Position numbers and translations under genes: made by a program. Under the pieces are notes generated by a model. It was not told where the DNA came from. It saw nothing but the letters and a program-made list of their open reading frames with translations, and made no database searches. DNA of 37,133 nucleotides from a virus. Positions 3,190-37,133 of the stretch are shown here, piece after piece. Each line of letters opens with the position of its first letter. Within the stretch, counting starts at the first letter, position 1. The stretch lies in IMG/VR virus record IMGVR_UViG_3300027659_000094, positions 1 to 37,133 of that record. One strand, written 5' to 3'.

Positions 3190-3692
3190 TGCTTTCACTG
3201 TTCTCAACTCTTGGGGGTCTGCTGATTTCTGGTCTTCCTAAACTGCTGGAATACTTCCAGAACAAAGCTGACCAAGCTCACGAACTAAAACTGGCTGGGT
3301 TGCAAAACGAGCGTGAACTGGCCATGGCCGCTCAGGGCTTCGCCGCCCAGTTGAAGGTCGAAGAGGTCCGCACCGACCAAGTAGCGATGGAGACCGATGC
3401 CCGGATGACTGAGGCAGCTCTTGAGCATGACGCCAAGGTGCTGGAAAAAGCCTCTACATGGGTGTCTAACTACGTTGGTACTGTGCGCCCCACAGTCACT
3501 TACATCTTTGTGGCAGAGCTGGTTTGCATCAACGCTTTTATGGCTTGGTACCTGTACCAGCAACCGGGTTTGATTACCAGCATTGACGACATCATCCGCT
3601 ATTCAGACCTGATCTTTAGTGCTGATGAAATGGCCATGTTGGGCGGCATCATTGGGTTTTGGTTCGGTTCTCGTCAGTGGAGCAAAAAGTGA
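3189..3692 (+). CDS. Holin, three-transmembrane (GTA holin-like)
   Basis: The ATG at 3189 overlaps the previous TGA by one base and follows AAGGGG, giving 167 residues. An N-terminal amphipathic or hydrophobic segment (MLSLFSTLGGLLISGLPKLL) is followed by a long charged helix (about 22-90) rich in Glu, Ala and Lys. Two hydrophobic spans follow, around residues 102-123 (TYIFVAELVCINAFMAWYLY) and 147-162 (EMAMLGGIIGFWFGSRQW). The long helix between membrane segments and the GxxxGFWFGSR ending fit the holin family I recall as GTA_holin_3TM (PF11351). It would form inner-membrane holes releasing the lysozyme encoded next. The last codons overlap the endolysin gene by GTGA, so the two are translationally coupled. 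Confidence 0.75.
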   Translation: MLSLFSTLGGLLISGLPKLLEYFQNKADQAHELKLAGLQNERELAMAAQGFAAQLKVEEVRTDQVAMETDARMTEAALEHDAKVLEKASTWVSNYVGTVRPTVTYIFVAELVCINAFMAWYLYQQPGLITSIDDIIRYSDLIFSADEMAMLGGIIGFWFGSRQWSKK

Positions 3693-4204
3693 AACTGAGC
3701 AAGGCAGGTGAAAACCTGATGCACCGGTACGAGGGCTTTCGCTCTCGCCCCTACCTTTGCCCAGCGCACATCTGGACGATTGGCTACGGCCATGTCCTGT
3801 ACCAAGAGCAGATCAGGCTCCCGATGGTTCGGCCACCCGGCAAGACCAAAGACGACATCCCGATGATTCGCAGCGAATACCCACTGAAACCGGAGGACAA
3901 CCGTGTCTGGACTAAAACGGAGATCGACGAACTATTCCGAGTTGATGTCGGAACTTTTGAACGGGGTGTTCTTCGTCTTGTTCCCAGTGTGGTTGGGCGT
4001 CAAGGCAGCTTTGACGCTTTGGTCTCTATAAGTTTCAACTTCGGACTGGGCAATCTGCAAAAGTCAACCATCCGCATGAAGGCAAACCGAAGCGACTGGG
4101 ATGGTGCAGCCGAGGCTTTCAGGGCTTGGACCAAGGGCGGCGGCAAGGTTCTCCCCGGGCTGGTCAAACGCCGAGAAGCTGAAATCGCACTGTTTTTGTC
4201 CTGA
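3689..4204 (+). CDS. Endolysin, GH24 (T4-type) lysozyme with Cys at the catalytic Asp position
   Basis: The preferred start is the GTG at 3689, which overlaps the holin stop (GTGA) and has GGAG six bases upstream, giving 171 residues. It hydrolyses the glycan strand of peptidoglycan. The catalytic Glu is E15 in RYEGFR, and the WTIGYGH signature contains T30. The position nine residues after the Glu, where T4 lysozyme has Asp20, is C24, so the triad reads Glu-Cys-Thr. Phage P1 Lyz also uses Cys here, but P1 carries a SAR signal-anchor and this protein has none: the N-terminus is charged (MKLSKAGENLM). A longer loop (about residues 37-70) separates the triad from the C-terminal lobe. Export therefore probably needs the upstream holin. 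Confidence 0.88.
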   Translation: MKLSKAGENLMHRYEGFRSRPYLCPAHIWTIGYGHVLYQEQIRLPMVRPPGKTKDDIPMIRSEYPLKPEDNRVWTKTEIDELFRVDVGTFERGVLRLVPSVVGRQGSFDALVSISFNFGLGNLQKSTIRMKANRSDWDGAAEAFRAWTKGGGKVLPGLVKRREAEIALFLS

Positions 4205-4207
4205 CTG

Positions 4208-4223
4208 GGTACAATCAAGGCTA
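4208..4223 (+). promoter_or_regulatory. GGTACAAT..GGCTA element, copy 1
   Basis: The sequence GGTACAATCAAGGCTA lies in the 33-base gap before the 849-residue tail gene. A near copy (12006-12020) lies in the gap before the giant ejection-protein gene. TACAAT fits a sigma70 -10 hexamer at 5 of 6 positions, but no convincing -35 lies 16-18 bases upstream. It could be a phage late promoter core or a regulator site. Only two copies were found by eye. Confidence 0.35.
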
Positions 4224-4237
4224 GTGAGGAAATTACC

Positions 4238-8792: not shown

Positions 8793-9209
8793 ATGGCAGA
8801 ACTTGTCTACGACCAGAAAGAACGCATCGGCGCATGGGTTGCCGCGCAGGTCGATCAGGGAACTGACTGGGGCAGCTTCTACGCTATTGGTGTGGTGAGT
8901 GGTGACGAAATCTTGGCTGGCGTGGTCATCAACAACTACAACGGGGCCAACGCAACGTGCCACATTGCCATCGCCAAGCATACAAAACAGATCGTTCCGC
9001 TGTTCCAAGCGGTGTGTGACTACGCCTTTCGCCACTGCGGCCTCAAAAGATTAACTGGCATGGTTCCGTCAAATGAGCCTAAAATACTGGCATTTGACAA
9101 ACACCTCGGTTTCGAGGAAGAGTTCGTCATGAAAGACGGTGCCCCCGGTGCCGACATGCACGTTTTGGTAATGCGGCCTGACACCTGTCGTTGGCTGCGC
9201 AAGGAGTAA
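8793..9209 (+). CDS. GNAT-family acetyltransferase in the virion gene block
   Basis: This 138-residue protein has the layout of a GNAT N-acetyltransferase. Central strands contain IGVVSGDEILAGVVINNYNG and a conserved C-terminal block contains LKRLTGMVPSNEPKILAFDK followed by LGFEEE, the usual acetyl-CoA fold ending (N..a......GF..E). GNATs of this RimJ/RimL-like type recur next to internal virion protein genes in podovirus-like genomes, where the target is unknown. It may acetylate a virion or host protein (inference). The start is weak: no clear Shine-Dalgarno lies before the ATG at 8793, and translation may depend on coupling to the fibre gene 9 bases upstream. Confidence 0.72.
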   Translation: MAELVYDQKERIGAWVAAQVDQGTDWGSFYAIGVVSGDEILAGVVINNYNGANATCHIAIAKHTKQIVPLFQAVCDYAFRHCGLKRLTGMVPSNEPKILAFDKHLGFEEEFVMKDGAPGADMHVLVMRPDTCRWLRKE

Positions 9210-12040: not shown

Positions 12041-15000
12041 ATGGCTTTCGTACCAATCCGCACTATTGTTGGAACCGATGAAGAAGACACTGGTTTTAAG
12101 CCGTTGCGGGATGTCTACTTAGGGCCAGCTCCGCAGCGTGGAGCCATTGCTGCCGGTCTTTCGGCTGGTGTTGACCAGCTTCAGGGGTTAGGTTACAGCG
12201 CTCTTGGTGGTGTTGCTGATATTGCTGGAGCAAGCGGAGTTAGTGACTGGGCGAACGAACAAGCCCGTCGCAATCAAATTGACGCTTCTGTTGGCGGTCG
12301 CCCTGATCTTGAGCGTATTGAAGACCAAACACTTGGGTCTGCTCTGCCTTACGTCGGTTATCAGATTGCCAAACAAGTTCCTACCATGGCCGGTATTGCC
12401 GGTGCGCAGTTTATTCCCGGATTTGGCCAAGCGGCTACTGCCTTGGGTCTTACACGCCTTGGGGCTGTTGCACCTCGTATGCTGGGCGGCGGCGGTTTGC
12501 AAGCTGGCTCTAGTGCTGCGGCGCGTCGTGCTGCTTTGGCTCAGGGCGAAGCTTTTGGTACTGGCACGCTGGCTGGCTCTGCAATGGGTTTTGGCTCGCT
12601 TTACGGCGAGTCTGTTGAGGGTGGTGACCCAAGCCCATTCAAGGCTCTGGCACTGGCTCCAATTTATGGCGCTGCTGAAGCTGTTCTTCCCGCTGTGTTG
12701 CAAGGCAGTTTGCGTGCGCCAGCTCGGTACTCCGGCAATCTTGGCACTCGCATGGCTAAAGCTGGTGGGGTTGCTGGTGCGGGTGAAAGCTTGACAGAAC
12801 TCGGCCAAAACGAACTTGAAATGGGCATGCGGTCAGACTTGACCGCTGAAGAAATGGCGTCTCGTCGCCTTAACGCAGCAGCAGCTGGCCTCATTGTCGG
12901 CGGTAGTTTGGGTACTGTTGGCGGTCTTCGCGGTCCAATGGACTTGACTAAACCTGACACAGAACAAGAAACCCAAACAAGTACTGAGCAAAAACCAATC
13001 CTTGGGTTGCAGTACAACCCGTTGGCTGGCACGCCGATCATTTTTCCGGACGGCACGGTTGCTTTGGGCAGCGAACAAGAAATGCTGGCCCGCACAGGCA
13101 TCAAGCTGCCTGCCGCCGCTGCTGAAAAAGACCTGACAGCACCAGCCGGTACAACTACAGCCGCTGCTGGGGTTACCAAGCCAACTACGCCGTCGATCTT
13201 CAGCGAAACAGATACTGCGCTGAACAAACTCGGTGTCAAGCCTACAAAGAATTCTCGAGGCATCTACGACTACTTGGTGGCAGAAGGCATTGACCCAGCT
13301 TCCCCAGAGGCCGAGCCAGTCATGAACGCCTTGGCTGCCAGCAAAGTTGGCGAGGCCCGTAAGGCCGTTGGTGAAATCATCCGAGCGAGGAGTACCCGTG
13401 GCACAGGAATTTCTACTGTACAGCAGCCTGCAGGAGGCTTGGGAGTTGGGAGCCCTGTCGTTCAAGGAACTGTGGGAGATGCAGGACGCGTTGCTCCTGT
13501 CGCAGGAACAGTGGTCGGAGGTGCCCCAGCAGCTGGAGCCCCACTTCAACAAACTGGCCTTCTTCCAATCACAGCCGGGCAACCATCTACCCCTGTAACT
13601 ACTGGAGCACTAAGTGGCCCTCAAGCCTCTCAAACCATCGAAACAGCGCCGCAAGGACAAACCACTACCACCGTTTCAACTGCCGCCCCGGTAAGCCAGC
13701 CGCTTGCGCCCGGTCAGTTCCGCCGCGCTCCTAAGCCAATGACAGTCTTGCAAGCTGCACGGGCAACTCCAACTCCATCAACGGCAGCGGAGCCAGTCGT
13801 AGATGAACGCCGAGAAATCTTGCAAAAAATCTTTGGCGAACGCAACGGTGGCATCATCTTTGACGTGGTGGGTATGGGTATGCCCGAGCCAGAGGCTGCT
13901 GCCAAGTACGGCTTGAGCCGTCAGTCCATTCAGAAGATTGCTGGTGCTACGGGTCAGAAAGAGTGGCCAGCGCTTATTGCAGGTGCCAAGGCTAAATTTA
14001 ATCTGACTGATGCTCAGATTGCGGATGCGTTCAATACAGTTGCGCCAGACAGCACAGAAGGTCAAATAGCCAGTGAAGTGTTTACGCAGGACCAAGCCAG
14101 CATGGACGAAAACGAAGCCATTGAGGCTGGTCTGGGTAACATCGTCAAAACCGCTGGCGCTGGAACTTCAGAGGTTGAAGGCTTTACCAAACTGCAAAAA
14201 GAAATTGACGCTACGCTCGAAGCACTGGCTGTAGAAACAGACCCTGCTGTGTTGGCAGATTTGAATGCCAAGTTGACTGCTCAGATTGAGAAGGTCAAGG
14301 CAGTTGAAAAACAAGCCCAAGCCGAAGTGCGGGCGCTTGCTGGTCGTAAGTCTGACAAGGACGCTAGCGACGAAAAAGAAGCTAAAGCCGATCAACCCAA
14401 AGAATTAGGAGCAGAAGATGCCGTTCAAGTCGAAAGCACAACAAGCGTATCTGTTCAGCCAAAAGCCGAAACTAGCAAAGCAGTGGTCGGACAAGTACGG
14501 CGTGTCAAAAAGCCTGCCACAGAAAGTAAAGCCCAAGTCCCAGCCGTCATCCTCACCCAAGCCGAGCAAGCAGCCCAAGCGTGGGATGTAGTCGCTGCTA
14601 ATTTTCCCGGGGCTCCTAAGTTTGCTGACCTGACTAAAGCCCAGCAGAACACCTTCATTGGTTTTGGTGAAGGTAACTGGGAGCGCGGTGACGTTGAGCT
14701 TGAGCTGACCAAACTGGCCAGAACTGCTGCGTCTACTCAACGAGCTATTGGCCGTGAGCCAGTGACCATTGACGTCGAGTCCCGCATCATTGACGAGACC
14801 GTTGCTCCGCAAGTTGCCAAGCTGCCTGCGCCTCAAGTCACTCGACTGGAAAACCACTACAACGCTAAGCGTGACAGTGCTGAGTTCTTGGCCAAGGTCA
14901 AGGCCGACGTTGTTCTGTACGCCACCAAGGGTGCCGAGGCAGTTGCTGGCGCTATCCGCGACATCATCAAGTCCATCCACGCAGGTGTTCTGTCAGCGGC

Positions 15001-18000
15001 TATGATTTTTAACCCGACTGCCATTTCGCAAGTCGAAGCCTTCGTGGTGATCCCACAGGAGACTCAGACTACAACAACGCAGGTTTTGGCAGAACTGCCA
15101 GCCGAAGTGAAGGGTATGTCCGAGGCAGGCAAGCAAGCCTACGCCACACTGATCCCAGCTCTCAAGGGCAAGATTGGCGACAAGTTCGTTACCATCGCTG
15201 ACAAGCCAAGCGGTCGTATCTTTGTGTTCAAGGCCAATGGCGAACTGGTTCTCCAGCAGAAAGCTCTGTTTGGTTTGGCCAAGGGTGACCTGTACAAGGG
15301 CAACAACGACCTCAAGCAGAACCGTGTGACTCCAGCCGGTCTCTTCGGTATCAACGTGGTGGACGCTGCCAAAGGTGGGGACGCCGCCAAGACCGCAGGT
15401 GACTACGACTTCGGCAAAGTGTTTGCTCTGGACGATCCGGATGCCACCGTTACGTTCATGCACTCCGTCTGGCTCAAAGAGTCGGACGCTGCCAAGCGTG
15501 CTGCTGCCCTGAAGAACGATTCCGCTGCTGACTCGCGCTACTCGTTTGGCTGCATCAACGTAGACAAAGAGACGTTCAAGGACATGGTCGGCAAGTACAG
15601 CAACCAGATGGACGGCTCCAAGCTCTTCGTGGTTCCTGACGTGCAGAGCACCGTCAACGACTTCATCACTGGCAATGTGGCCAACGACCGACTCGTGCGC
15701 GAAGGCGTACAGCCAGTCACCAAGACTACCACTACTCCAGTCAAATCGGCCACCAAGACTGCTGGTGTTGACCGCACAGTAGCTGCCAAAGATGAAGAAG
15801 TCGGTGGCATGAAGTTTGGTAAAGAGGGTGCTCCAGTCAAGCAGCCGTACACAGCCAAGGAACTGCTGGCCGAACTCAAAGACTTTATACGAGCAGACAT
15901 TCCCGGTCGTAAATTGATGGTTGTGGACAGCGTAGTTGATTTGCTCACTTCTACAGACGAAAAAATACGAGCAGTTGGTGCTGCTTTGCAGCTTGAGGGC
16001 GCTTATGGCGTGGCCGTAGATGGTCGTGCGTACCTAATTGCAAACCGAATCAAACAGGGCTCTGGTCGCGCTAAGTTTATGCACGAAGTCGGCGGTCACT
16101 TGGGTCTGGACAATTTGCTTACCAAGGCAGATCAGGACAAGCTGGTCAATCAAATCAAGACGTGGGCTAAGAAAGCTGACGGCTCTTTGGAAGCTGAATT
16201 GGCGCTGCAAGCCTTCGAGCGTGTGCAAGCTGCGCAGACTCCTCAAGAAGACCGACGGTCGGAACTGATTGCTTACTTCATTGAGTCGGCCATGGAGATG
16301 GGTGTAGACCCGACTGCTGCCAATGACACCAAGTTGTCTGGCCCACTACGTGAATGGTTCCGCAATCTGTGGGCAGCATTTAAAGTAGCCGCTCGCAAGT
16401 TGGGCTTGAAGCCTGAGTCCATGACAGCCCAAGACGTTGTCAACTTGGCCTATGGTGCTGCTCGTTTGGAAATCAACGGCACATGGCACGGTACTGCTGC
16501 ATCATTTCGGAACTTCCGCCACAAGTTTATGGGGACTGGAGAAGGCGCACAAGCTTTTGGCTGGGGTACGTACTTGGCTCAACGCACTGGCATTGCCAAA
16601 GCCTACTGGACTGCGGATGTCGAGCGCAAGGCTAGTGGCCAACCTCGCCAACTAGCGGATTACCCCGGCAAAGATGCTTTTGAGGCTGCGGCTGCGGCAA
16701 ACGACTACCTCGGGCTTGGCCGCATGGGCAACCTCATCTCCTCCGCGAAACGGGGGGGAATGGATTTGATGCGTTCCCAATACGACATTTCCGCAGCACT
16801 AGACAAAGAACTTACAGCTTTCATGAATTGGGTACGCCCTGAAGGCAACCTGATGCGCGTCGACACCGCCGTTCCAGAAAACGAAATGTTGGATTGGGAT
16901 AAAGTTCTTTCTAGGCAGACTTCAGTTTTGAATAAGATTAAAGCTAAGTTGCCGGAAGACCTGCGCGAAGCCGTGGAAGAAGAAGTAAACGAAACGCTTG
17001 AAGGTATGACCGGCGAAGACTTTTACAGAGCTTTGATGTTCGTAGAAGACCGCGACGGTTTTGTCAGCGAGCAATTTGACGTAGCGGATTACAACAAACG
17101 ACTGGCCAACGCGCCAACCAAACAAGTTGTTTCCGCTTTTATTGACGAAAAACTCGGCGTCAACGGATTGAAGTTTTTGGACTCTGCCAGTCGTGGTAAT
17201 CCAGAGTTGCTCAAAGCTAAGTTGAAACAAAAACAAGAACTGTTGGCGGAAAAACAAAAAGACCTCGATAAAGCCAGCAAGGAGGCAGATCGCTGGGAAG
17301 GTCTATACGACGACGCGCCCGCAGATCAAAAAACATACGCACGTAAAACGTGGCTAAACGCAGTCTCTGCACGTACATCAAAAGAGTTTGAAGTTGAACA
17401 ACTCAAACAAGACATTGTGCAAGACACAAACAAGCTGCGTTCCATCGAGAAAAAAACGCGCAACCTTGTTATCTTCAACGATAAGAACATTTTCCGCGTG
17501 GGTTCTGAGGCTGCTGCGGATCGCCAGCGCATGAAGTTCGGCAGTGACATGGTTGAGTTGGGCAAGCGCGGCCAGTTGAAAGAGAAGGCTGGTAAGACAC
17601 GAGTTGATACTGCCAATGACCGTGCTATCAAACTCTTGGAGAAGGCGGCTAAGACCAAAGACCCAGCCGAAGCTGAGGCGCTGCGTGCCGAAGCTAACGC
17701 GCTATTTAGTGCCACTGCTGGCAAGTTGTCCGGCATGAAGTTTGGTAAGAACGCAGTGCCGCAAGGACTGATCGACCGCAACATTGCCAAGCTGCCTAAT
17801 ATGTCCCAGCAGCCGGTGAAGCGTGTTGTTGAGTCTATTGGTGATCTGGGTGGCAAGTACCTCGACTATGCCTTGTTTACTAACGATCTGGTCAAGCGTG
17901 CTCAGGCTTTGGGTCTGGGCGCTGCCAAAACTTTCTTCGACCGACTTGCTGCACGCAACGCCAAGGTCAGTGAGGAAGAGCGCAAGATTGAAAAGATCGC

Positions 18001-20581
18001 CGACCGCTACGCCCTGATCGAAGACGTCAACAAAGGCTCTGGCCCCGGCTCCGTCAACGAGTTCTTGTTTGAGTCCACCCGCACAGGCAAGTGGGGCTAC
18101 GACACAGCCAAGTTCAAAGCTGACCCAGCGATGAAGGCCGAGTTCGACAAGCTGGGCCCCAAGGCTCAGCAGTTCGTCAAGGACGTGTTTGCCCATGGCG
18201 ATGCCACGCTGTCGAACAAGAAGACGATTGTCCTGAACGCCACCAACTCCGAGTACGACGCCATGATTAAGGCAGCTCAGGACTTGGTAAACACTGCCAC
18301 GGACAGCAAGGTCAAAACCGACGCTGAGAAAGAGCTGGCCAAGCTCAAGGCAGAGAAAGCCGCTACGCTCAAGCGTTTCCAGACGCTGTTCCGCATCCGC
18401 GAGGGCATCCCCTACTCGCCTATCAAGCGCACTGGTGCTTACGTGGTAATCGGTGAGTCCGCTGAGTACAAAGCTGCCAAGGCCAATAAAGACACAGCCA
18501 CAGTCAAGAAGCTGGAGTCTGACCCAGACCACTACCATGTGTCGTTTGTCGATACCAAGTGGCAGGCTCGTAACCTAAAAGACAATTTGGCCGAGCAAGG
18601 TGTGTTCGATAGCCCGCAGATCGTGAAGCGCTCTGAGTCGTTTGATGAAGCGTTCAGTGGTGAGGCCATGCTGCCAGCCCTGACAAAGATGCGTGCCGCT
18701 GTTGATCGCCGTGCGCAAGACGCCAATGGCAAGAAAGACCCGACTGCTGGCAAGCTGCTCAACATCATCAACCAGTTGTACTTGGAGGCGTTGGCTGAGG
18801 GTAGTGCCCGCAAGTCTGAGATGCGCCGCCGTGGTGTGTCTGGTGAAGTGGACATGCTCCAGTCGTTCACACAGCAAGGCCGTGCCGATGCCAACTTCTT
18901 GGCCAGCGTTGAGTTTGAGCCTAAGATTCAGGACGCCCTGCAGCAGATGCGTAACCAGTCACGCACTGGCGACCGTGAGCGCAAGTCTGAAATCTTTGAC
19001 GAGCTGACCCAGCGCTACGCTGACTCGTTGGAGCCCAAAAACAATCCGTTCATCAACGGCCTGACCAACATGGCGTCCAAGTTCTTCTTGGCTTCCAGCC
19101 CCGGCTACTACCTGCAGAACTTGACACAGCCATTCATGATGTCGCTGCCTGCTATGGCAGGTCGCCACGATTACACCAAAGCTGCTGCTGCGCTGGCCAA
19201 GGCATACACTGAGTTGGGTCCGCTGTTCAAGGACGTGAAGCTGTTTGACCAGCAGTTTGACTTCTCCAAGGTGCCTGCTGACGTACGTACAGCTATCAAC
19301 GACTTGGTCAACCAAGGCAAGATTGACATCGGTCTGGCCACTGAGATTAACGAGTACAAGGTAGAAGCTGACGGCAAACTCAGCCAGTTTGCACAGCGCC
19401 TGAACAAGGGCATGCGTATGGCTGTCCAGAAGGTGGAAGCTACCAACCGTTTGTCTACTGCCATTGCTGCATACCGCTTGGAGTTTGAGCGGGCTAAGAA
19501 AGACCCAAAGATTGCAGACCCTAAAGCTGCAGCCACACAGTACGCTGCTGACATCCTGACTGAAACCCATGGTGACTACACAGCCTTTAACGCTCCTCGT
19601 GCGTTCAACACCCAGTGGGGTAAGGTGGCTTTGCAGTTCCGCAAGTTCCAGTTGATTCAGATTGCGTTCTACACCAAGCTGATCCGTGATGCGTTTACTA
19701 ATCCGGACGAGCGTGCAGTCGCCATGAAGACTCTGGGATACTCACTTGGCCACACTGCGGTGTTCGCTGGCATGATGGGCTTGCCCGGCTACGCTGCCAT
19801 TGCTGCGATCATGAGCGCCTTTGGCGACGAAGACGAGCCATACGACCTGACCGCTGAGATGCGCAAGGCGCTTGGCCCAGAGTGGGCTGACATGATTATG
19901 CGTGGCGCTCCTACCTTAGTTGGTATGGACTTGTCAGGCAAGATCGGTGCTGGCAACATGCTGTCCATCATGCCATTTAGTGACGCTGACTTGAGCACCA
20001 ACGCAGGCCGTGCCGAAGCGTTCGGTACATTGATGGGCGGTGCTGCTCTTGGTATGGCATCTCGAGTGGTTGACGGTCTTGGCCTTATTGCCAGCGGTGA
20101 CTACTACAAGGGTATTGAGCGCACTATGCCCAAGGGTGTGTCCGACGCACTCAAGGCTGGCCGTCAGGCTGCTGAAGGTATGACTCGCCGCAATGGTGAT
20201 GTGATCTTGCCTGACAGTGAAATTAGTGCAATCGACACAGTGATGACCGGATTGGGTGTGCCTGCTGTAAAACAAGCTGTGACCTACGAGCGTCAGAACC
20301 GCATGCGTGATATCACTGAGAACTTCCAAGACCGCACTACGCGCATCAAGAACGACTACACCAAAGCTGTTCGGGAGCAAGATACCGAGGCCATGGCAGA
20401 AGCCCGTGCTGCATGGACGAAACTACAGCAGACTCGCCAGCGTAACGGCTTGACACCGCAGCCAGTATCTAGCTTGCTGAAAGCGCCGCAGGAACAGAGG
20501 GCTCGTGAGCAGCGCACCGTAGGTGGTGTACAGTACCGCGAAGGCCAGCGTAAACTGGCAGAATCCGTAGTTGAAAATTAA
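12041..20581 (+). CDS. Giant polyvalent ejection protein: YkuD-like, metallopeptidase-like, ART-like and LPD38-like segments
   Basis: A single uninterrupted 2846-residue frame starts after AAGGGG. Residues about 30-310 are Gly/Ala-rich with hydrophobic helices, possibly membrane-inserting. A helix-turn-helix-like stretch (PEPEAAAKYGLSRQSIQKI) starts near 615. About 1035-1215 resembles an L,D-transpeptidase (YkuD): H1141 and C1171 within YSFGCINV, a variant of SHGC. About 1257-1470 holds HEVGGH (H1348, E1349, H1353), a possible zinc peptidase of HExxxH form. From 1483, HGTAASF then GTGEGAQAFGWGTYLA matches the ART-PolyVal ADP-ribosyltransferase pattern. Coiled coil fills about 1705-1800, and about 2330-2660 resembles LPD38. 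Its place as the last and largest internal protein fits the T7 gp16 slot, injected with DNA. Activities are inferred, not shown. Confidence 0.8.
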   Translation: MAFVPIRTIVGTDEEDTGFKPLRDVYLGPAPQRGAIAAGLSAGVDQLQGLGYSALGGVADIAGASGVSDWANEQARRNQIDASVGGRPDLERIEDQTLGSALPYVGYQIAKQVPTMAGIAGAQFIPGFGQAATALGLTRLGAVAPRMLGGGGLQAGSSAAARRAALAQGEAFGTGTLAGSAMGFGSLYGESVEGGDPSPFKALALAPIYGAAEAVLPAVLQGSLRAPARYSGNLGTRMAKAGGVAGAGESLTELGQNELEMGMRSDLTAEEMASRRLNAAAAGLIVGGSLGTVGGLRGPMDLTKPDTEQETQTSTEQKPILGLQYNPLAGTPIIFPDGTVALGSEQEMLARTGIKLPAAAAEKDLTAPAGTTTAAAGVTKPTTPSIFSETDTALNKLGVKPTKNSRGIYDYLVAEGIDPASPEAEPVMNALAASKVGEARKAVGEIIRARSTRGTGISTVQQPAGGLGVGSPVVQGTVGDAGRVAPVAGTVVGGAPAAGAPLQQTGLLPITAGQPSTPVTTGALSGPQASQTIETAPQGQTTTTVSTAAPVSQPLAPGQFRRAPKPMTVLQAARATPTPSTAAEPVVDERREILQKIFGERNGGIIFDVVGMGMPEPEAAAKYGLSRQSIQKIAGATGQKEWPALIAGAKAKFNLTDAQIADAFNTVAPDSTEGQIASEVFTQDQASMDENEAIEAGLGNIVKTAGAGTSEVEGFTKLQKEIDATLEALAVETDPAVLADLNAKLTAQIEKVKAVEKQAQAEVRALAGRKSDKDASDEKEAKADQPKELGAEDAVQVESTTSVSVQPKAETSKAVVGQVRRVKKPATESKAQVPAVILTQAEQAAQAWDVVAANFPGAPKFADLTKAQQNTFIGFGEGNWERGDVELELTKLARTAASTQRAIGREPVTIDVESRIIDETVAPQVAKLPAPQVTRLENHYNAKRDSAEFLAKVKADVVLYATKGAEAVAGAIRDIIKSIHAGVLSAAMIFNPTAISQVEAFVVIPQETQTTTTQVLAELPAEVKGMSEAGKQAYATLIPALKGKIGDKFVTIADKPSGRIFVFKANGELVLQQKALFGLAKGDLYKGNNDLKQNRVTPAGLFGINVVDAAKGGDAAKTAGDYDFGKVFALDDPDATVTFMHSVWLKESDAAKRAAALKNDSAADSRYSFGCINVDKETFKDMVGKYSNQMDGSKLFVVPDVQSTVNDFITGNVANDRLVREGVQPVTKTTTTPVKSATKTAGVDRTVAAKDEEVGGMKFGKEGAPVKQPYTAKELLAELKDFIRADIPGRKLMVVDSVVDLLTSTDEKIRAVGAALQLEGAYGVAVDGRAYLIANRIKQGSGRAKFMHEVGGHLGLDNLLTKADQDKLVNQIKTWAKKADGSLEAELALQAFERVQAAQTPQEDRRSELIAYFIESAMEMGVDPTAANDTKLSGPLREWFRNLWAAFKVAARKLGLKPESMTAQDVVNLAYGAARLEINGTWHGTAASFRNFRHKFMGTGEGAQAFGWGTYLAQRTGIAKAYWTADVERKASGQPRQLADYPGKDAFEAAAAANDYLGLGRMGNLISSAKRGGMDLMRSQYDISAALDKELTAFMNWVRPEGNLMRVDTAVPENEMLDWDKVLSRQTSVLNKIKAKLPEDLREAVEEEVNETLEGMTGEDFYRALMFVEDRDGFVSEQFDVADYNKRLANAPTKQVVSAFIDEKLGVNGLKFLDSASRGNPELLKAKLKQKQELLAEKQKDLDKASKEADRWEGLYDDAPADQKTYARKTWLNAVSARTSKEFEVEQLKQDIVQDTNKLRSIEKKTRNLVIFNDKNIFRVGSEAAADRQRMKFGSDMVELGKRGQLKEKAGKTRVDTANDRAIKLLEKAAKTKDPAEAEALRAEANALFSATAGKLSGMKFGKNAVPQGLIDRNIAKLPNMSQQPVKRVVESIGDLGGKYLDYALFTNDLVKRAQALGLGAAKTFFDRLAARNAKVSEEERKIEKIADRYALIEDVNKGSGPGSVNEFLFESTRTGKWGYDTAKFKADPAMKAEFDKLGPKAQQFVKDVFAHGDATLSNKKTIVLNATNSEYDAMIKAAQDLVNTATDSKVKTDAEKELAKLKAEKAATLKRFQTLFRIREGIPYSPIKRTGAYVVIGESAEYKAAKANKDTATVKKLESDPDHYHVSFVDTKWQARNLKDNLAEQGVFDSPQIVKRSESFDEAFSGEAMLPALTKMRAAVDRRAQDANGKKDPTAGKLLNIINQLYLEALAEGSARKSEMRRRGVSGEVDMLQSFTQQGRADANFLASVEFEPKIQDALQQMRNQSRTGDRERKSEIFDELTQRYADSLEPKNNPFINGLTNMASKFFLASSPGYYLQNLTQPFMMSLPAMAGRHDYTKAAAALAKAYTELGPLFKDVKLFDQQFDFSKVPADVRTAINDLVNQGKIDIGLATEINEYKVEADGKLSQFAQRLNKGMRMAVQKVEATNRLSTAIAAYRLEFERAKKDPKIADPKAAATQYAADILTETHGDYTAFNAPRAFNTQWGKVALQFRKFQLIQIAFYTKLIRDAFTNPDERAVAMKTLGYSLGHTAVFAGMMGLPGYAAIAAIMSAFGDEDEPYDLTAEMRKALGPEWADMIMRGAPTLVGMDLSGKIGAGNMLSIMPFSDADLSTNAGRAEAFGTLMGGAALGMASRVVDGLGLIASGDYYKGIERTMPKGVSDALKAGRQAAEGMTRRNGDVILPDSEISAIDTVMTGLGVPAVKQAVTYERQNRMRDITENFQDRTTRIKNDYTKAVREQDTEAMAEARAAWTKLQQTRQRNGLTPQPVSSLLKAPQEQRAREQRTVGGVQYREGQRKLAESVVEN

Positions 20582-29274: not shown

Positions 29275-31230
29275 TTATTTGACTTCGCCATACGTGTCAC
29301 CGACGTCGCCTTCAGACCATGTGATTAGCTCAGGCCACCACGACACGCCCTTACGCATAATGCTCTGCAATTCGTCGAGAACTTCGTTCGCCACAGTCTC
29401 AGGAACGATGTACACCAGCTCGTCATGCACCGCCAGTGATGGGCGGTATCCGGTACGTTTGAACATGGTCAGGGCATGCTCAGCGATCACGTCACGGGCA
29501 AGGGCTTGCACCAAGTTCTCAACGCCTTTTCCAGCGTAGATACGAGCGCGGCTACGGCCAGAGCCGTACCACCATTCAGACTTGCCGTTGTCCATCTCTT
29601 TGGTCAGGCCGGGGTAGTAAATCTTGCGACCGGACGGTAGGCGCACAGCGTGCTTCTCGGTAACGCACAGACCCCATGGGTCAATGGCTACCTCTGTACC
29701 TTGCTGGATGTTGGGGATGTTGTTCTGAAACGACTTCCAACCTTTGACGATGTCATGGTACGTGTCACGCCATGAAGTCACCACCTCAAGCGACTCGGCT
29801 TCTGACAAGTCCAGACCGCCCATGAGCTTGGCCACCTTGCGGAACGTAGGCGCACCAGCACCGAAGCCCAGACCCAACTGAGCGATCTTGGCCAGCTGTC
29901 GCTGATCTTTGGTCACCTCGCTCTCGTCGATGCCGTAGCGTGCAGCAGCAAACGATTTGTACAAGTCAGCCTCAACGTCAGCGGAGTACAAGTCCATGGA
30001 CTGCTTGACCTTCCACAGGAAGTGGTTGACCCGCAACTCGATGCCAGACAAGTCAGCTACGACGACCTTGTGCTTCTTAGGGGCACGCAGTGAGTTACGT
30101 AGGGCATCAGAGGGCTTGGGAACCTTGGGGTTAATGCGCGGCAGGTTCTGCATGTTGTACTGCTCACCAGACCAGCGCCCAGTGGTGTCAGCGCCAGCGT
30201 ACTTGAGTGGCACGGGGATACGACCACCGCATGCGTCAGCGGCCTTGATGAACGCTTGCAGTCTTGTCTCCAGCAGGGTGGACTTGACCTCCAGCCGCAC
30301 ACGGGCAGCAGCAGCGATGATTGGGTCTTCGTGGTCTTGCAGTGCGATGAACGCATCGTCAGTCTTGGCCAGCGCAGGTGTCATCTTGGCCGGGTTGGTA
30401 GGCGACTGCTTCATGGGAATTTCGACCCCGCGAGATGTAAGCAACTCACCGAACTTGGCGGCGCTTGCCATGGTCATGCGGACATATTCTTCGGGGTCGG
30501 TGGGGTCGCCCTCCAGCTTGCGGGCCACTGACTCAGCTTGCGTAAACAGCAAATCATACAAGTCGTTGAGGGACTTGGCCTTCTCAGCTTTCACATCCTC
30601 CAGCGCCTTGTTCACCATGCCGTAGTCGAGTTGGAACTTGGGCTCCACAAGCATACGTGTAGTCATGTCAATGTGCATCAGCTCTGCCTTGGGGAATCCC
30701 TTGGCCAGCTTCTTGAACAACTCAGCGCACAGGTCAGTGTCCACCTTGTTGTACTCTTCCATCTGAGCCAGCTCATCAGGGCTGAAGTCACATAAGTGTT
30801 TACCCTTAGTGTTCGTAGCTTCGAGGTCTAGCTTTGCACCGACCTTCAACTCAGCAGCCAGCTTCTTGAGCGACACGCCTGTAAGGAACTTGCCACCAAC
30901 GGACGTGCCTGTCTTGGAGTATTTGGAACGTGCCATGGCAGCAGTGCAGCCGTACATCTTGGGGTTGATGCCAAGTCTCCATGCAAGGATCATCGCATCG
31001 AAGCCAGACATGTTGTGACCAATTGCGATCTTGTCGCTCCAGTCCATGTCCTGCATGTGTCTTCTGATCTTGTCCTCACCAAACAGTACGTACGTAGGCT
31101 CATCGCCCTCACGTATAGCCACCGAAATGATCTCAGTGTCTGGGTGCTGTATGTACTCAGTGGGGGACATACGACTCAGCGTGTGAGTCGTAGACCAGAA
31201 ACTTTCAAAGTCAATGTAGACGGGTGTCAT
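29275..31230 (-). CDS. DNA polymerase, family A, with 3'-5' exonuclease domain
   Basis: This 651-residue protein starts at an ATG overlapping the preceding stop (TAATG), with GGAG upstream. The N-terminal exonuclease has YIDFES with D7 and E9 and IAIGHNMSGFDAMIL near 70-84. Polymerase motif A is VVADLSGIELRVN near 389-401, motif B is RQLAKIAQLGLGFGAG near 438-453, and motif C is AVHDELVYIVP near 596-606. Motif B has Leu where T7 and Taq have Tyr/Phe before Gly, a form I recall in other phage PolA-type enzymes. It is the replicative polymerase, acting with the primase-helicase and SSB-like protein. No thioredoxin-binding loop is obvious. Confidence 0.93.
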   Translation of the reverse strand: MTPVYIDFESFWSTTHTLSRMSPTEYIQHPDTEIISVAIREGDEPTYVLFGEDKIRRHMQDMDWSDKIAIGHNMSGFDAMILAWRLGINPKMYGCTAAMARSKYSKTGTSVGGKFLTGVSLKKLAAELKVGAKLDLEATNTKGKHLCDFSPDELAQMEEYNKVDTDLCAELFKKLAKGFPKAELMHIDMTTRMLVEPKFQLDYGMVNKALEDVKAEKAKSLNDLYDLLFTQAESVARKLEGDPTDPEEYVRMTMASAAKFGELLTSRGVEIPMKQSPTNPAKMTPALAKTDDAFIALQDHEDPIIAAAARVRLEVKSTLLETRLQAFIKAADACGGRIPVPLKYAGADTTGRWSGEQYNMQNLPRINPKVPKPSDALRNSLRAPKKHKVVVADLSGIELRVNHFLWKVKQSMDLYSADVEADLYKSFAAARYGIDESEVTKDQRQLAKIAQLGLGFGAGAPTFRKVAKLMGGLDLSEAESLEVVTSWRDTYHDIVKGWKSFQNNIPNIQQGTEVAIDPWGLCVTEKHAVRLPSGRKIYYPGLTKEMDNGKSEWWYGSGRSRARIYAGKGVENLVQALARDVIAEHALTMFKRTGYRPSLAVHDELVYIVPETVANEVLDELQSIMRKGVSWWPELITWSEGDVGDTYGEVK

Positions 31231-33145: not shown

Positions 33146-33643
33146 TCAGCCTCCAAAGATTTTCTTGAGTGCGTCGTACAACTCACGAGCTTGCACGATA
33201 GACAGTGTGTCCAGTAGATGCGGCACAGTCGTTGTCAGTTTGACATTATCAGGCACTGGTGTTGGCTTAGGTGTCACCACTGCAACAGGCTTAGCCTTTT
33301 TAGCTTTGTCTCTTGCTACGTACCCTCTAACGTAGTGGTTGCCTACGGTTGTGTATGTTGACACGCTGCCATTCTTTGCGGCTTTGATGAGGCTGCGTTT
33401 GGTAAACTGCACGATCAGAGATGATGACGATGAATCTTTGATGTTGGCTTTGCGTGCGAGCTCAACCAATTCTGATCTTGTAAGACCGGGGTTGTCTCTG
33501 ATGATGTTGAAAAGTTTCTCAGACACTCCTAAAAAGTCTGGTACGCCTATAGCTGCTGGTAGTGTAATCACGTTTGTTGTATCTCCATCGTCGTCAAATT
33601 TAAGGGCTTCGAGTTTCTTCAGTTCAGATTTCAAGTCAGGCAT
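33146..33643 (-). CDS. Putative DNA-binding protein with winged-helix-like middle
   Basis: The start is the ATG at 33643, with AACTGGAGAACGAAT upstream, giving 165 residues; a longer frame from 33691 lies inside the neighbouring gene. The N-terminus is charged (MPDLKSELKKLEALKFDDDG). About residues 40-105 contain SEKLFNIIRDNPGLTRSELV, then a helix ELARKANIK, QFTKRSLIKAAK and TYTTVGNHYVRG. This looks like a winged-helix fold (helix, turn helix, then a beta wing). The linker is Lys/Pro/Val-rich and the C-terminus has IVQARELYDALKKIF. It could be an early regulator (inference). The gene overlaps the previous one by 8 bases. Confidence 0.55.
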   Translation of the reverse strand: MPDLKSELKKLEALKFDDDGDTTNVITLPAAIGVPDFLGVSEKLFNIIRDNPGLTRSELVELARKANIKDSSSSSLIVQFTKRSLIKAAKNGSVSTYTTVGNHYVRGYVARDKAKKAKPVAVVTPKPTPVPDNVKLTTTVPHLLDTLSIVQARELYDALKKIFGG

Positions 33644-34283
33644 ATTCGTTCTCCAGTTCGTCAATGATTTCGGTGAGTATGTAGTTAGCATCTAACGCTT
33701 CCAATACAGATTCGTCCGAGGTCAGCGCGTCGTACTCGACTTCGAGTCGGTTGTATAGCGAACGCATGTGACGCTTGAACTCTTTCTCGAACGCTTCCTC
33801 AAAGTCTGAGCGCTTGTAGTCAGCGATCAATGCCATCCATGCAGCAGTCTGAATCTCTGACTTGTATGGCGAGAAGACACTAGCAAAGTCTTCTTCATCG
33901 TAGGCGTCATTGCAGTCAAGTGTGTTGAGGCATGTATCGAAGCGGGTGCAGTTCTCATGGTAGTAGTGACCCTTGTGCTCGACACCAAAGCTCCAGCCAG
34001 TGTTAGCTAGCGTTATGAGTGCTGGGTCTTTGTATCCGAGCGATGGCAAGAAGTCCTCCCATGAAAACACACGACCCTCGAAGCATGCACCGTCACCCTG
34101 TGAGCCGAACCCGCTGAAGTACATGCGATGTACCTCAATGCCAATGTCGTCCATGTCGCGCTTGAAGTCGTCGTAGACAGCATCCCACCATTCGAGGTGC
34201 TCTGTGCTAAAGCGACGATGCTTGTCGAGTATCTCGTCTCGTTGCTTTGTTGGCAGTGCTTTGAATCTTTCCATGGGTGTCAT
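33636..34283 (-). CDS. Conserved phage protein with FSGFGSQGDGACF motif
   Basis: The start at 34283 (MTPMERFKALPTKQRDEILD) is preceded by TTGGAGAGTCAA and overlaps the previous stop by ATGA, giving 215 residues. The middle contains IEVHRMYFSGFGSQGDGACF, a motif I recall in many phage and bacterial hypothetical proteins, and later KGHYYHENCTRFDTC. The rest is acidic and helical (VLEALDANYILTEIIDELEN). No known activity was recognised; a structure-based search would be needed to place it. It is co-transcribed with the unknown genes around it. Confidence 0.65.
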   Translation of the reverse strand: MTPMERFKALPTKQRDEILDKHRRFSTEHLEWWDAVYDDFKRDMDDIGIEVHRMYFSGFGSQGDGACFEGRVFSWEDFLPSLGYKDPALITLANTGWSFGVEHKGHYYHENCTRFDTCLNTLDCNDAYDEEDFASVFSPYKSEIQTAAWMALIADYKRSDFEEAFEKEFKRHMRSLYNRLEVEYDALTSDESVLEALDANYILTEIIDELENEYA

Positions 34284-34462
34284 TTGACTCTCCAATACTT
34301 ACGGGTAACTTGCACAACTTCTTCCTTCGGCGGGATAGGTTCGAACTTGTTGCCGAATGGTGGTATCCAGCCGAAGCGACGCCACGTAGCCTGCACGTCA
34401 GCGCCTGACGTCCACTTGTAGTCGGGGTGGCTGACAGGGATGGTTGGTAATGTTTTCTTCAT
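34280..34462 (-). CDS. Small protein, unknown
   Basis: This 60-residue protein starts after GGAGG and overlaps both neighbours by ATGA. It begins MKKTLPTIPVSHPDYKWTSG and contains VQATWRRFGWIPPFGNKFE, a Trp/Pro-rich stretch. It ends KYWRVK. Composition suggests a small folded domain, but no family was recognised. Confidence 0.6.
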   Translation of the reverse strand: MKKTLPTIPVSHPDYKWTSGADVQATWRRFGWIPPFGNKFEPIPPKEEVVQVTRKYWRVK

Positions 34463-35130
34463 GATGCCTCCGCTAGTTTGGCTGCAATGGCTGCGGCTGT
34501 AAGACCGTCAGTGTCAATGTCATCAACGATTGCTTTTCGCTGTGATACACGCTCGACCTTGCGATTGAGACGCTCCATGTCTTCGCTGTGAATGTACATA
34601 GTCACATTGGGGAATAGCTTGACTGCCTCGTTGAGTGACTTGCACTTCTTGAGGAACTCGTTAATGTCTGTCTCGACCTTAGTCCACTTGGCGTCAATGT
34701 CCATGGCGATAATAGCTTCGTCCCAGCGTTGTAGCAACTCGGCGCGACCTACTATATCTTCTGGCAGTGAGCGAACGTAGTCGAATGTCAGCTCAGAGTC
34801 TGTCTTGTTGTAATAGCTGTCCTTGGGGCGAGCGTACGCGTACTTCATGCCGCTGAACCTAACAGTGGTAGCTAGGGTACGACCATCATCTAACTTGCCA
34901 TTGATGGTGATGTTGCCGTCATCAATTTTGCCCAGCCAATCCTTGGGGATTTGATTGACGAGGTGTACGTGCTGCATACCCCAGCATCCGATGTTGAACA
35001 GCTGACTGGCGTCAACAAGGATGTTATCGGTGAAGTGGGGTAAGTCAGCATTGCGCTCAGACCTACGCATTGCGTTGATCTTGGTCGAGACGCGATTGAT
35101 AAGCTCTTTGGTGATGTATACGGTAGCCAT
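34459..35130 (-). CDS. Conserved phage protein, unknown (weak Nmad5-like pattern)
   Basis: This 223-residue protein starts after AAGGAAAATC. The N-terminus (MATVYITKELINRVSTKINA) is followed by LPKDWLGK-like IPKDWLGKIDDGN. The C-terminal half contains VETDINEFLKKCKSLNEAVK and FPNVTMYIHSEDMERLNRKV, a layout I associate with phage proteins of the putative nucleotide-modification family Nmad5. I am not confident of that, and no catalytic residues are identified. It overlaps the following gene by ATGA and is separated from the upstream 50-residue gene by a hairpin. Confidence 0.6.
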   Translation of the reverse strand: MATVYITKELINRVSTKINAMRRSERNADLPHFTDNILVDASQLFNIGCWGMQHVHLVNQIPKDWLGKIDDGNITINGKLDDGRTLATTVRFSGMKYAYARPKDSYYNKTDSELTFDYVRSLPEDIVGRAELLQRWDEAIIAMDIDAKWTKVETDINEFLKKCKSLNEAVKLFPNVTMYIHSEDMERLNRKVERVSQRKAIVDDIDTDGLTAAAIAAKLAEAS

Positions 35131-35159
35131 GATTTTCCTTGTGTTGAGGTTTAGAAGAG

Positions 35160-35177
35160 GCCACCTCTGCGGGTGGC
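35160..35177. repeat. Inverted repeat (hairpin) in the gap before the 223-residue gene
   Basis: GCCACC (35160-35165) pairs with GGTGGC (35172-35177) across a 6-base loop. There is no T tract on either strand beside it, so it is not a typical terminator. It may reduce read-through or mark an mRNA processing site. Confidence 0.35.
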
Positions 35178-35185
35178 TTACTTAT

Positions 35186-35338
35186 TTACTTAGCAGCTGA
35201 CTGAACGAAGTCAGCGATTGCTTCTCTGAGTTTGTCGCGTGTCTCCTGTGGTGCGTCCTCTGCTAGTGCGTCATAGCACTGCTTGAAAATGTTGTTGTAA
35301 GCCTCGATGAGACTGTCAAGTTGGTCTTTGGTATCCAT
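35186..35338 (-). CDS. 50-residue acidic helical protein
   Basis: The start is the ATG at 35338, with GGAG seven bases upstream inside the end of the metallopeptidase gene. The peptide begins MDTKDQLDSLIEAYNNIFKQ, then CYDALAEDAPQETRDKLREA, and ends in FVQSAAK. It is helical and mostly acidic. A longer frame through 35539 would overlap the preceding gene by 200 bases and is not supported. It starts one base after the preceding stop, so it is likely translated with it. Function is unknown. Confidence 0.6.
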   Translation of the reverse strand: MDTKDQLDSLIEAYNNIFKQCYDALAEDAPQETRDKLREAIADFVQSAAK

Positions 35339-35339
35339 G

Positions 35340-36446
35340 TCATTGCTCCAAGGTAAAGTGGATATTGTCGCCGTAAGGAGCCTTGATGTCACTAGAGATA
35401 CACCAGACCACTGGATAGTCAGGCGCATTGGCCGTGTTGAAGTCAGTGTAACCGTCGGTGAGGCAGACGAACACCTCGGGATTGATACCCTCCTTGGCGA
35501 TGTAGTTGAAGCCCTCCTCCATGTCAGTGCCGCCGCCACAGTAGAACGTCAGCGCCACCTCCTCGCCCTGCTCGAACACCTCGTGCTTGACTACGCTAGT
35601 GTCAACATACAAGACATGGACACGGGTGGGGTTGCACATCGACACGATGCGCTGTAAGTGACCGTTGTAGTGGTCAAGCTCGGACTTGGAGATAGAACCA
35701 GACACGTCAACTTGGATGACAACCTCGCCCATCTCGGGGGACTTGCCAGTGGATGGAAGATAGCAGTCAACGAAGCGGCGGTTAGGACGCGACCATGTGT
35801 AGTCACCACGGGTGAAGGTGGTCATGTAGCGCTCGAGAATGTCGTGCCATGGTGTGCGTACGTCGATGAGTTCAGCAACGATCTTGGCCAGCGCACCGGG
35901 CATCTTGCCTTGAGCCTTGGCAGCTTGGGCAGCTTGGGCAATCTCTACGCGAGTCTCAGCGTCGATGCGGTCAGCCTCCTCGCTAGTGAGTGGTGAGCCA
36001 CGCTCAATCAAGTCATCACCAGTACCACCGGGGCCGTTGCCGTCGGGTTGGTCGGGCAGCTTGTTGTAGATGACGTCGACTGTCTCGTCCTTGGAGCCGG
36101 GCATATCGACACAGCCGGGGATGACAGAGCCGATGCCAGCGTCCTTGAGCATGTCGTTAATCCATGCGTCACCAGCGATGTTCCACTTCTTGGGCTGACG
36201 TGCGCCACGGCGCAGGGCATGCTGACCGATGACATGGCCTACCTCATGACACAGCAAGAACACAAGCTCGTCAACAGACAGCTTGTCAACGAATGACTTG
36301 TTGTAGTAAATCTGACCACGCTGGTCGACAGCAGCAGTGGGGATGGTGTTGTCCTCGATGAGCTTACGCTTCATGAGGATGGATGCAAAGAACGGATGCT
36401 GGGTAACTATTGATACCTTGGCCCGGTCGAGTGTGGTAACTGCCAT
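35340..36446 (-). CDS. Metallopeptidase-VWA protein (DUF2201-like)
   Basis: This 368-residue protein starts after AAGGAGTAATC. Residues about 20-100 contain the zincin motif HEVGH (H67, E68, H71) in LLCHEVGHVIGQHALRRG, matching the putative metallopeptidase domain (PF13203). From about 230 a VWA-like region (PF09967) follows: VVIQVDVSGSISKSELDHYN holds DxSxS of the metal-ion-dependent adhesion site, then LYVDTSV and FVCLTDGYTD. Such proteins usually pair with a MoxR-type AAA+ ATPase encoded next to them; the partner might lie beyond the right edge. Its phage role is unknown. Confidence 0.82.
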   Translation of the reverse strand: MAVTTLDRAKVSIVTQHPFFASILMKRKLIEDNTIPTAAVDQRGQIYYNKSFVDKLSVDELVFLLCHEVGHVIGQHALRRGARQPKKWNIAGDAWINDMLKDAGIGSVIPGCVDMPGSKDETVDVIYNKLPDQPDGNGPGGTGDDLIERGSPLTSEEADRIDAETRVEIAQAAQAAKAQGKMPGALAKIVAELIDVRTPWHDILERYMTTFTRGDYTWSRPNRRFVDCYLPSTGKSPEMGEVVIQVDVSGSISKSELDHYNGHLQRIVSMCNPTRVHVLYVDTSVVKHEVFEQGEEVALTFYCGGGTDMEEGFNYIAKEGINPEVFVCLTDGYTDFNTANAPDYPVVWCISSDIKAPYGDNIHFTLEQ

Positions 36447-36448
36447 GA

Positions 36449-36991
36449 TTACTCCTTGAAAGTGATGATGTGGATTGGCTCAGTGCCTCTGAGCATGTCG
36501 GCTACTTGTTTAGATTTGTCTTTCATCTCCTGTGTAGTGTGCTCGGCCAAGATTTCTATAACCTTACGGATTGCGTCCTTGTCGTGCATGTTGACGTAAA
36601 AGTTAGAATTCAGGTTGTTGATGCAGACCATAGCGTCCTCGTACCGGTCTTTGTAGTATCCCTTGCGGTATGTAGGCTCTTCCAGTAACCGCGCAGTCCA
36701 GTCAGCACGTACAACCTCCGCCACACTGGGTGCTGCTTCTGCCGATAGACCTAGGATATGTAAACCGTTCCAGTTGGTTGAGCCACACTGAAGCCCGTGC
36801 TGCTGCGACAGTGCTTGTGCTATCTGCTTAGACTTGGACGACCAGCCACCTTGGAGGGTGCGGCACTCCAACATGCGGATAATGCGGTTACGCATCCTTA
36901 CACCTAGCCGTTGTGGGTGTAGCGTAACTGTTGTCTCTGTACAGGGCATACCAGTGATACGCCCTCGTTGAAAACTAGTCATGTTGCTCAT
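36449..36991 (-). CDS. Protein of unknown function
   Basis: This 180-residue protein starts after GAGGAGAGCAA and overlaps the truncated gene upstream by ATGA. It begins MSNMTSFQRGRITGMPCTET, with basic RNRIIRMLECRTLQGGW next. The middle has ICNN-like VCINNLNSNFYVNMHDKDAI and the end contains EMKDKSKQVADMLRGTEPIH. Charged and helical, it has no domain I recognise. It sits directly upstream of the metallopeptidase-VWA gene with 2 bases between them, so the two are likely translated together. Confidence 0.55.
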   Translation of the reverse strand: MSNMTSFQRGRITGMPCTETTVTLHPQRLGVRMRNRIIRMLECRTLQGGWSSKSKQIAQALSQQHGLQCGSTNWNGLHILGLSAEAAPSVAEVVRADWTARLLEEPTYRKGYYKDRYEDAMVCINNLNSNFYVNMHDKDAIRKVIEILAEHTTQEMKDKSKQVADMLRGTEPIHIITFKE

Positions 36992-37133
36992 TTGCTCTCC
37001 TCAAAAAAGTATCCATCGTCTCGTTGCACAATCTTTCCTTTCTTTTCATAGACACCAACTAACCAGTTGGCGTACTTGTTTGCACGTCGCTCCTCGAAAA
37101 TAGCCCACATCTTTATGGACTGGTTACGCCACA
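36988..37133 (-). CDS. Truncated gene at the right edge (3' end only)
   Basis: An open frame runs from the right edge to a TGA at 36988-36990 that overlaps the next start (ATGA). The visible 47 residues contain WRNQSIKMWAIFEERRANKY and then NWLVGVYEKKGKIVQ, ending FFEESK. The gene begins beyond the window, so length and family cannot be judged. The overlap shows it belongs to the same operon. Confidence 0.6.
   Translation of the reverse strand, partial: WRNQSIKMWAIFEERRANKYANWLVGVYEKKGKIVQRDDGYFFEESK

Follow-up and report, generated by a model that had tools for sequence, protein, structure and literature searches.

The 37,133-base virus record IMGVR_UViG_3300027659_000094, analysed over its entire length and called the window here, encodes close to its right edge a 368-residue protein (35340..36446, minus strand) that combines a zinc-peptidase motif with a von Willebrand factor A (VWA) domain. 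The question raised by this locus is whether the protein works with a MoxR-type AAA+ ATPase and, if so, on what kind of client. Our analyses identify it as a DUF2201 metallopeptidase and VWA protein like gp25 of phage N4, with conserved active-site and metal-binding residues, and show its gene to be linked to that of a MoxR-like ATPase in related viral contigs, in diverse phages and on plasmids.

A metallopeptidase-VWA protein

Pfam searches with the 368-residue protein returned DUF2201_N (E 1.3e-49, 169.7 bits against a cut-off of 23.2) and DUF2201 (E 4.1e-20, 72.6 bits, cut-off 26.4), with a weaker match to Peptidase_M48 (E 3.2e-5), and the protein matched PHROG 1314 with an E value of 7e-91. 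The HEVGH and DxSxS motifs that the initial annotation had read from this gene were both present, the latter as DVSGS. Across 38 aligned sequences H67, E68, H71, D93, D247, S249, S251, T307 and D331 were invariant, a set comprising both zinc histidines, the catalytic glutamate, Asp93 and the five residues of the metal ion-dependent adhesion site (MIDAS; DVSGS, T307 and D331), while 45 more diverse sequences from phages and plasmids retained HExxH in 44 cases and the MIDAS motif DxSxS in all 45. From this residue conservation the protein is predicted to be a metallopeptidase, and Asp93, by its place in a conserved motif, is a candidate third zinc ligand. The predicted model (mean predicted local distance difference test score, pLDDT, 79.1) matched VWA domains over residues ~197–368 (Z up to 12.0, root-mean-square deviation 3.1, 155 residues), the fold comparison covering residues 191–368.

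PHROG 1314 is described as 'HNH endonuclease' and many records carry this label, but Pfam shows metallopeptidase and VWA domains and no HNH domain in the protein, and residues 197–368 correspond to a VWA fold. The chance that the family consists of HNH endonucleases is practically nil and we regard the label as wrong; it has possibly spread from HNH genes inserted beside gp24/gp25.

The ATPase gene and a third gene shared with plasmids

Gene neighbourhoods were compared in 71 loci, namely 69 viral contigs recovered with the VWA protein (most at 70–98%) together with CRP-7 and Pollock. A MoxR-like AAA+ gene lay upstream of the VWA gene on the same strand in 60 of these, at a distance of 0.7–5.3 kb, and the remaining 11 extend just 2 to 1,998 bases past the VWA gene on its upstream side. 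The proposal of the initial annotation that an AAA+ MoxR gene might be found just past the edge was thus upheld in every relative with room for it, and the pair also co-occurred in all 20 of a set of phage records described below, so that neither of the two outcomes named there as refuting it was seen. The window's own record yielded no AAA_5 match in Pfam, since just 687 bases of it lie upstream of the VWA gene; in the nearest relatives (L003, L005 and L004) the ATPase match begins 2.9–3.5 kb upstream. By comparison with these relatives, the ATPase gene of this genome would lie ~3 kb past the right edge, separated from the VWA gene by a DUF3150-like gene among others.

The ATPase of L005 matched PHROG 1297 (E 3.6e-65), and the Walker A residues, E98, N135, R153 and R204 were invariant in the ATPase alignment; in CRP-7 and cyanophage MinM2 the gene is labelled 'MoxR family ATPase'. 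Pfam AAA_5 matched 49 of the 71 records at E ≤ 1e-3 and 12 above the cut-off, the two matches in Pollock being to other P-loop genes.

Some phage copies of the ATPase gene are split. Group I introns (2792–3144, 3426–3652, 4071–4230) interrupt the gp24 gene of Escherichia phage Pollock (L002), with one RF00028 match of 101 bits and sub-threshold matches of 33.5 and 28.9 bits flanking an HNH gene. The ATPase of Vibrio phage pVco-5 is broken at a similar profile position (115–119), its group I match, at 28.5 bits, being sub-threshold, and in G7C an HNH gene precedes gp25.

The MoxR/VWA pair of phages is already published, both for jumbo phages in 2021 and as gp24/gp25 of N4. Our tblastn matches to the VWA protein fell in 635 of 50,697 phage records, all below 60% identity. 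In 20 phage records picked for diversity, PHROG 1297 and PHROG 1314 were both present throughout, with best E values per record of 1.5e-68 or better and 3.2e-92 or better, respectively, and the two genes were separated by no more than ~6 kb; the set includes schitoviruses, vequintaviruses, an Arenbergviridae phage (287 kb), an Eneladusvirus (355 kb), Sinorhizobium phage Phosso (469 kb), Bacillus phage G and Thermus phage phiFa. In the vequintaviruses Murica (L115/L116) and KpS8 (L118/L119) the ATPase and VWA genes stand on opposite strands ~4–5 kb apart, so that the pair is linked there without forming one operon.

Clustering of open reading frames (ORFs) in the loci holding both genes placed a family of ~290 residues between them in 50 of 55 cases. 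Its matches among phage records were three, all of them 65,014-base cyanophage records; the MinM2 copy is annotated DUF3150, and when its profile was compared with that of the window family the probability was 99.6 (E 9e-24). The MinM2 protein matched 42 plasmid records, and in the four that were fetched (Cupriavidus pRK1-1, Burkholderia pBVIE02, Rhodovastum and Simplicispira, the hosts being Burkholderiales and Rhodovastum) the order was again ATPase, DUF3150-like, VWA, with the ATPase gene of the Simplicispira plasmid 3.6 kb further upstream. Family scans confirmed PHROG 1297 and 1314 in all four, and three were typed as conjugative. In a check for virion genes on the plasmids, terminase and portal models matched none of 11 records, five of them phage records, and these models thus missed known phages too.

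Pfam PF11348 (DUF3150) matched a plasmid copy at E 1.1e-4 with 22.1 bits, below its cut-off of 24.9, and at E ≤ 0.1 it matched no phage record out of 39, the controls likewise being without a match; the family is therefore called just 'DUF3150-like'. The DUF3150-like profile was positive in 13 of 34 records (eight of nine viral contigs, MinM2 and the four plasmids), several of the positives having themselves contributed rows to the profile and L019, L034, L056, L060 and L071 having contributed none. As the profile found nothing in the 20 diverse phage records (W01–W20), we rejected the DUF3150-like protein as a third component common to all. A plasmid VWA protein, used in a wider plasmid search, matched 109 of 72,556 records. 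Three more of these were looked at: in Synechocystis pSYSA and Rhodococcus pREL1 the ATPase and VWA genes adjoin with no DUF3150-like gene between, and in a Rhodothermus record the annotated gene preceding the VWA gene has no Walker A motif. A single origin of the DUF3150 association was not seen on the VWA tree, which required seven changes over 19 labelled rows, at least five of them by well-supported branches; L046, for which there was no profile test, was left unlabelled, as was the window, whose third gene would fall past the edge, and L050 was labelled after its near-twin L051. The association of the pair with a DUF3150-like gene, shared by phages and plasmids, was not found in the literature searched, nor was any mention of DUF3150, or of Schitoviridae and MoxR together, in a coverage that was incomplete and lacked most subscription journals.

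What the pair may do in the cell

Within the window family the ATPase and VWA proteins show mean identities of 79 and 78%, comparable to the DNA polymerase (74%) and exonuclease (75%), whereas the small neighbouring genes p223, p50, p180, p99 and p181 average 38–46%, and the pair is on this account taken as the core of the locus. The VWA gene stands at the head of an operon holding the DNA polymerase, exonuclease and helicase genes, on the strand opposite to the virion genes.

Because the pair is common to many phages and to plasmids, it is probably a protein-remodelling machine acting inside the host cell. With moderate confidence we favour a role in ATP-driven remodelling or clipping of an intracellular client, other than a structural virion protein, in early or middle infection. 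By analogy with NorQD and other MoxR/VWA pairs, the ATPase would form a ring with the VWA domain docked in its pore; the MIDAS metal would grip an acidic residue on the client protein, ATP hydrolysis would twist the client open, and the N-terminal zinc domain, taking the place of NorD's N-terminal domain, would clip or hold it. Most likely the client is a protein inside the cell, belonging to the host or to the element, on which the machine acts at an early point of takeover or replication.

Several observations weigh against this reading. The ATPase gene lies outside the window and the gene order is that seen in relatives, and AAA_5 is weak on this ATPase, the L005 copy matching at E 0.039. 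ATPase and VWA distances correlated over 33 elements (r 0.91; eight near-duplicates from the window family, Rhodothermus, and Pollock and pVco-5 with their split ATPase genes were omitted), and still at r 0.74 after thinning to 28, against a maximum of 0.25 over 5000 permutations; within the window family, however, the VWA protein correlates with other genes at 0.70–0.90, equally well or better with the exonuclease and p223. After this control we rejected the mirror-tree as proof of partnership, since correlation with other genes of the same genomes is as good, and the r values show shared descent. In pVco-5 the peptidase motif reads HITWH, lacking the catalytic glutamate and keeping the motif histidines and the MIDAS, so cleavage may be dispensable. 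In roseophage RPP1, moreover, virion genes forming a second structural module near gp24/gp25 favour a virion role there (PMC4193335).

The RPP1 arrangement bears on the proposal that the pair is a chaperone-protease of virion assembly, folding and trimming structural proteins during particle maturation, as put forward in PMC7824862 for the same MoxR/peptidase-VWA architecture in group 2.2 jumbo phages with reference to the tail chaperone of Acidianus two-tailed virus. We consider this unlikely here: plasmids, three of the four conjugative, carry the same genes along with the DUF3150-like gene, which makes virion assembly less likely as the common role and weakens virion proteins, one of the two kinds of target named in the initial annotation, as the shared target; in the window family the VWA gene heads a replication operon on the other strand from the virion genes; and gp24 and gp25 of N4 are middle genes (PMC4193335). 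Somewhat less probable again is that the peptidase domain serves as a non-catalytic adaptor that binds clients in a chaperone without cleavage; this would suit the loss of the glutamate in pVco-5 and the fact that NorQ/NorD works by remodelling (PMC9976466, PMC13036017), and it sits poorly with the near-universal HExxH of phage and plasmid members.

The cobST annotation given to AAA+/VWA pairs of archaeal tailed viruses and of cyanophages (PMC8651126, PMC9503304) raises the further idea of a viral CobS/CobT cobaltochelatase that increases host vitamin B12, which we hold to be very improbable, as DUF2201_N was found in neither of two cyanophages (P-SSM2 and S-PM2) and the PHROG family 'porphyrin biosynthesis' gave weak matches (E 4e-7 and 6e-5) to two of five ATPases from plasmids and cyanophages and none to that of L005. 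A bolder version of intracellular remodelling would have a three-protein mobile-element module, moved between phages and plasmids and serving both alike in a newly entered cell, dismantle a host complex, for example a defence or replication-control assembly; the ATPase would drive remodelling, the client would be cleaved, and the DUF3150-like protein would act as its adaptor. This we offer as a speculative and rather unlikely extension.

Neighbouring genes, known systems and significance

The left part of the window carries virion genes on the plus strand, with matches to an internal virion protein, a tail fibre and other structural proteins, and the right part carries primase-like, helicase, exonuclease and DNA polymerase genes on the minus strand. 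At the upstream end of this minus-strand replication run stand eight consecutive ORFs from 33146 to the right edge, as the initial annotation had counted. Overlaps of 4 bases (ATGA) link three pairs of neighbours, and gaps of 1–2 bases separate two more, so the run looks like one operon; the spacing of −4 to +2 bases suggests co-translation of several neighbours, and most starts are preceded by a purine-rich stretch. Gene order was kept across the related contigs of the 71 loci, many of which are short fragments.

Immediately upstream of the VWA gene is a fast-evolving 180-residue gene of no family (p180; 36449..36991, minus strand like all genes of the run), with aligned relatives at the same place in 53 loci; the window copy had no PHROG match, and three of 40 p180 members matched PHROG 17741. 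Beyond it the edge cuts a gene (36988..37131) that the initial annotation had suggested might be part of a chaperone-peptidase complex. It proved not to be the ATPase: matches in 23 loci identify the fragment as the C-terminal part of a ~65-residue protein with a hydrophobic N-terminal segment, a 19-residue stretch with a mean hydropathy of at least 1.6 occurs in 11 of 18 full-length relatives, and the product is probably membrane-anchored. Immediately downstream of the VWA gene is a 50-residue gene (35186..35338; 58 loci), whose start was refined to 35338 from 35539.

The 223-residue protein p223 (34459..35130; 57 loci) resembles Nmad5 by predicted fold (pLDDT 81.6): among its 16 best BFVD matches five carry the name 'nucleotide modification associated domain' (E 0.008–0.03), and Pfam Nmad5 matched weakly in two of 35 members (best E 0.077). 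Against the PDB, p223 had no match at E ≤ 0.001. The CRP-7 protein gp16, encoded downstream of its VWA gene, was rejected as a p223 relative (probability 0.7%). Next come a 60-residue gene (34280..34462; 35 loci) and a protein of 215 residues (33636..34283) with a conserved FSGF-SQGDGA motif, a member of PHROG 5162 (unknown function); this ORF was originally taken as 219 residues (p219, 28 loci), and alignment of relatives backs the ATG at 34283. The run ends with a 181-residue gene (p181; 33146..33691; 42 loci), which had no Pfam match over the cut-off and no PHROG match. Pfam returned nothing above cut-off for p180, p223, the 215-residue protein, p181 or p156. The earlier view that a single gene of the run had a clear family was therefore nearly right, the additions being the Nmad5-like fold of p223 and the PHROG assignment of the 215-residue protein.

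Elsewhere in the window, the virion half holds a 2,846-residue ORF (12041–20581, plus strand), an Acyl-CoA N-acyltransferase-like gene (8793–9209, plus strand; PHROG 4470) among the tail genes, and an internal virion protein of 849 residues (4238–6787, plus strand) with its best matches in 57–63 kb records; matches to the latter include Aeromonas phage phiARM81mr and Stx-converting phages, and reach 80% coverage in no record. The DNA polymerase (29275–31230, minus strand) is nearest to those of Pseudomonas phage Rollin, Rhizobium RHph_TM and KPP25-type phages of 61–64 kb, at 29–32% identity, and RHph_TM27B also has a match to the ATPase.

Among known systems, gp24/gp25 of Schitoviridae have the same AAA+ ATPase followed by a peptidase-VWA protein, with PHROG 1297 and 1314 in the schitoviruses tested; they differ in that no DUF3150-like gene was found in the tested records and in their ~25–34% identity to the window protein. 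Group 2.2 jumbo phages likewise pair a MoxR AAA+ protein with a VWA domain fused to an N-terminal metallopeptidase (PMC7824862), whereas the longest relatives of the window are 55–63 kb and have extra conserved genes between the pair. NorQ/NorD shares the MoxR ATPase and a MIDAS-bearing VWA protein, and a NorQD chain, 9qhe_G, stands at rank 44 among the Foldseek matches of our VWA model, with an E value of 0.066 or lower, but the available part of PMC13036017 describes no metallopeptidase domain in NorD, whose client is nitric oxide reductase. The cassettes of pRK1-1, pBVIE02 and the Rhodovastum plasmid hold the three families in the same order as the phage family; they are contiguous, whereas in the phage family the genes take up a few kb and are accompanied by small additional genes.

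The gp24 and gp25 genes of N4 are core genes of a large phage family, entered in a 2014 core-gene table as 'Unknown' and just 'vWFA domain' (PMC4193335), and in our sample the pair occurs on plasmids and in phages that infect Bacillus, Thermus and many Gram-negative hosts. The present results correct the wrong 'HNH endonuclease' label on many public records, and the occurrence on plasmids, together with the third gene, allows the published proposal of virion assembly to be tested against a role in takeover or in countering the host.

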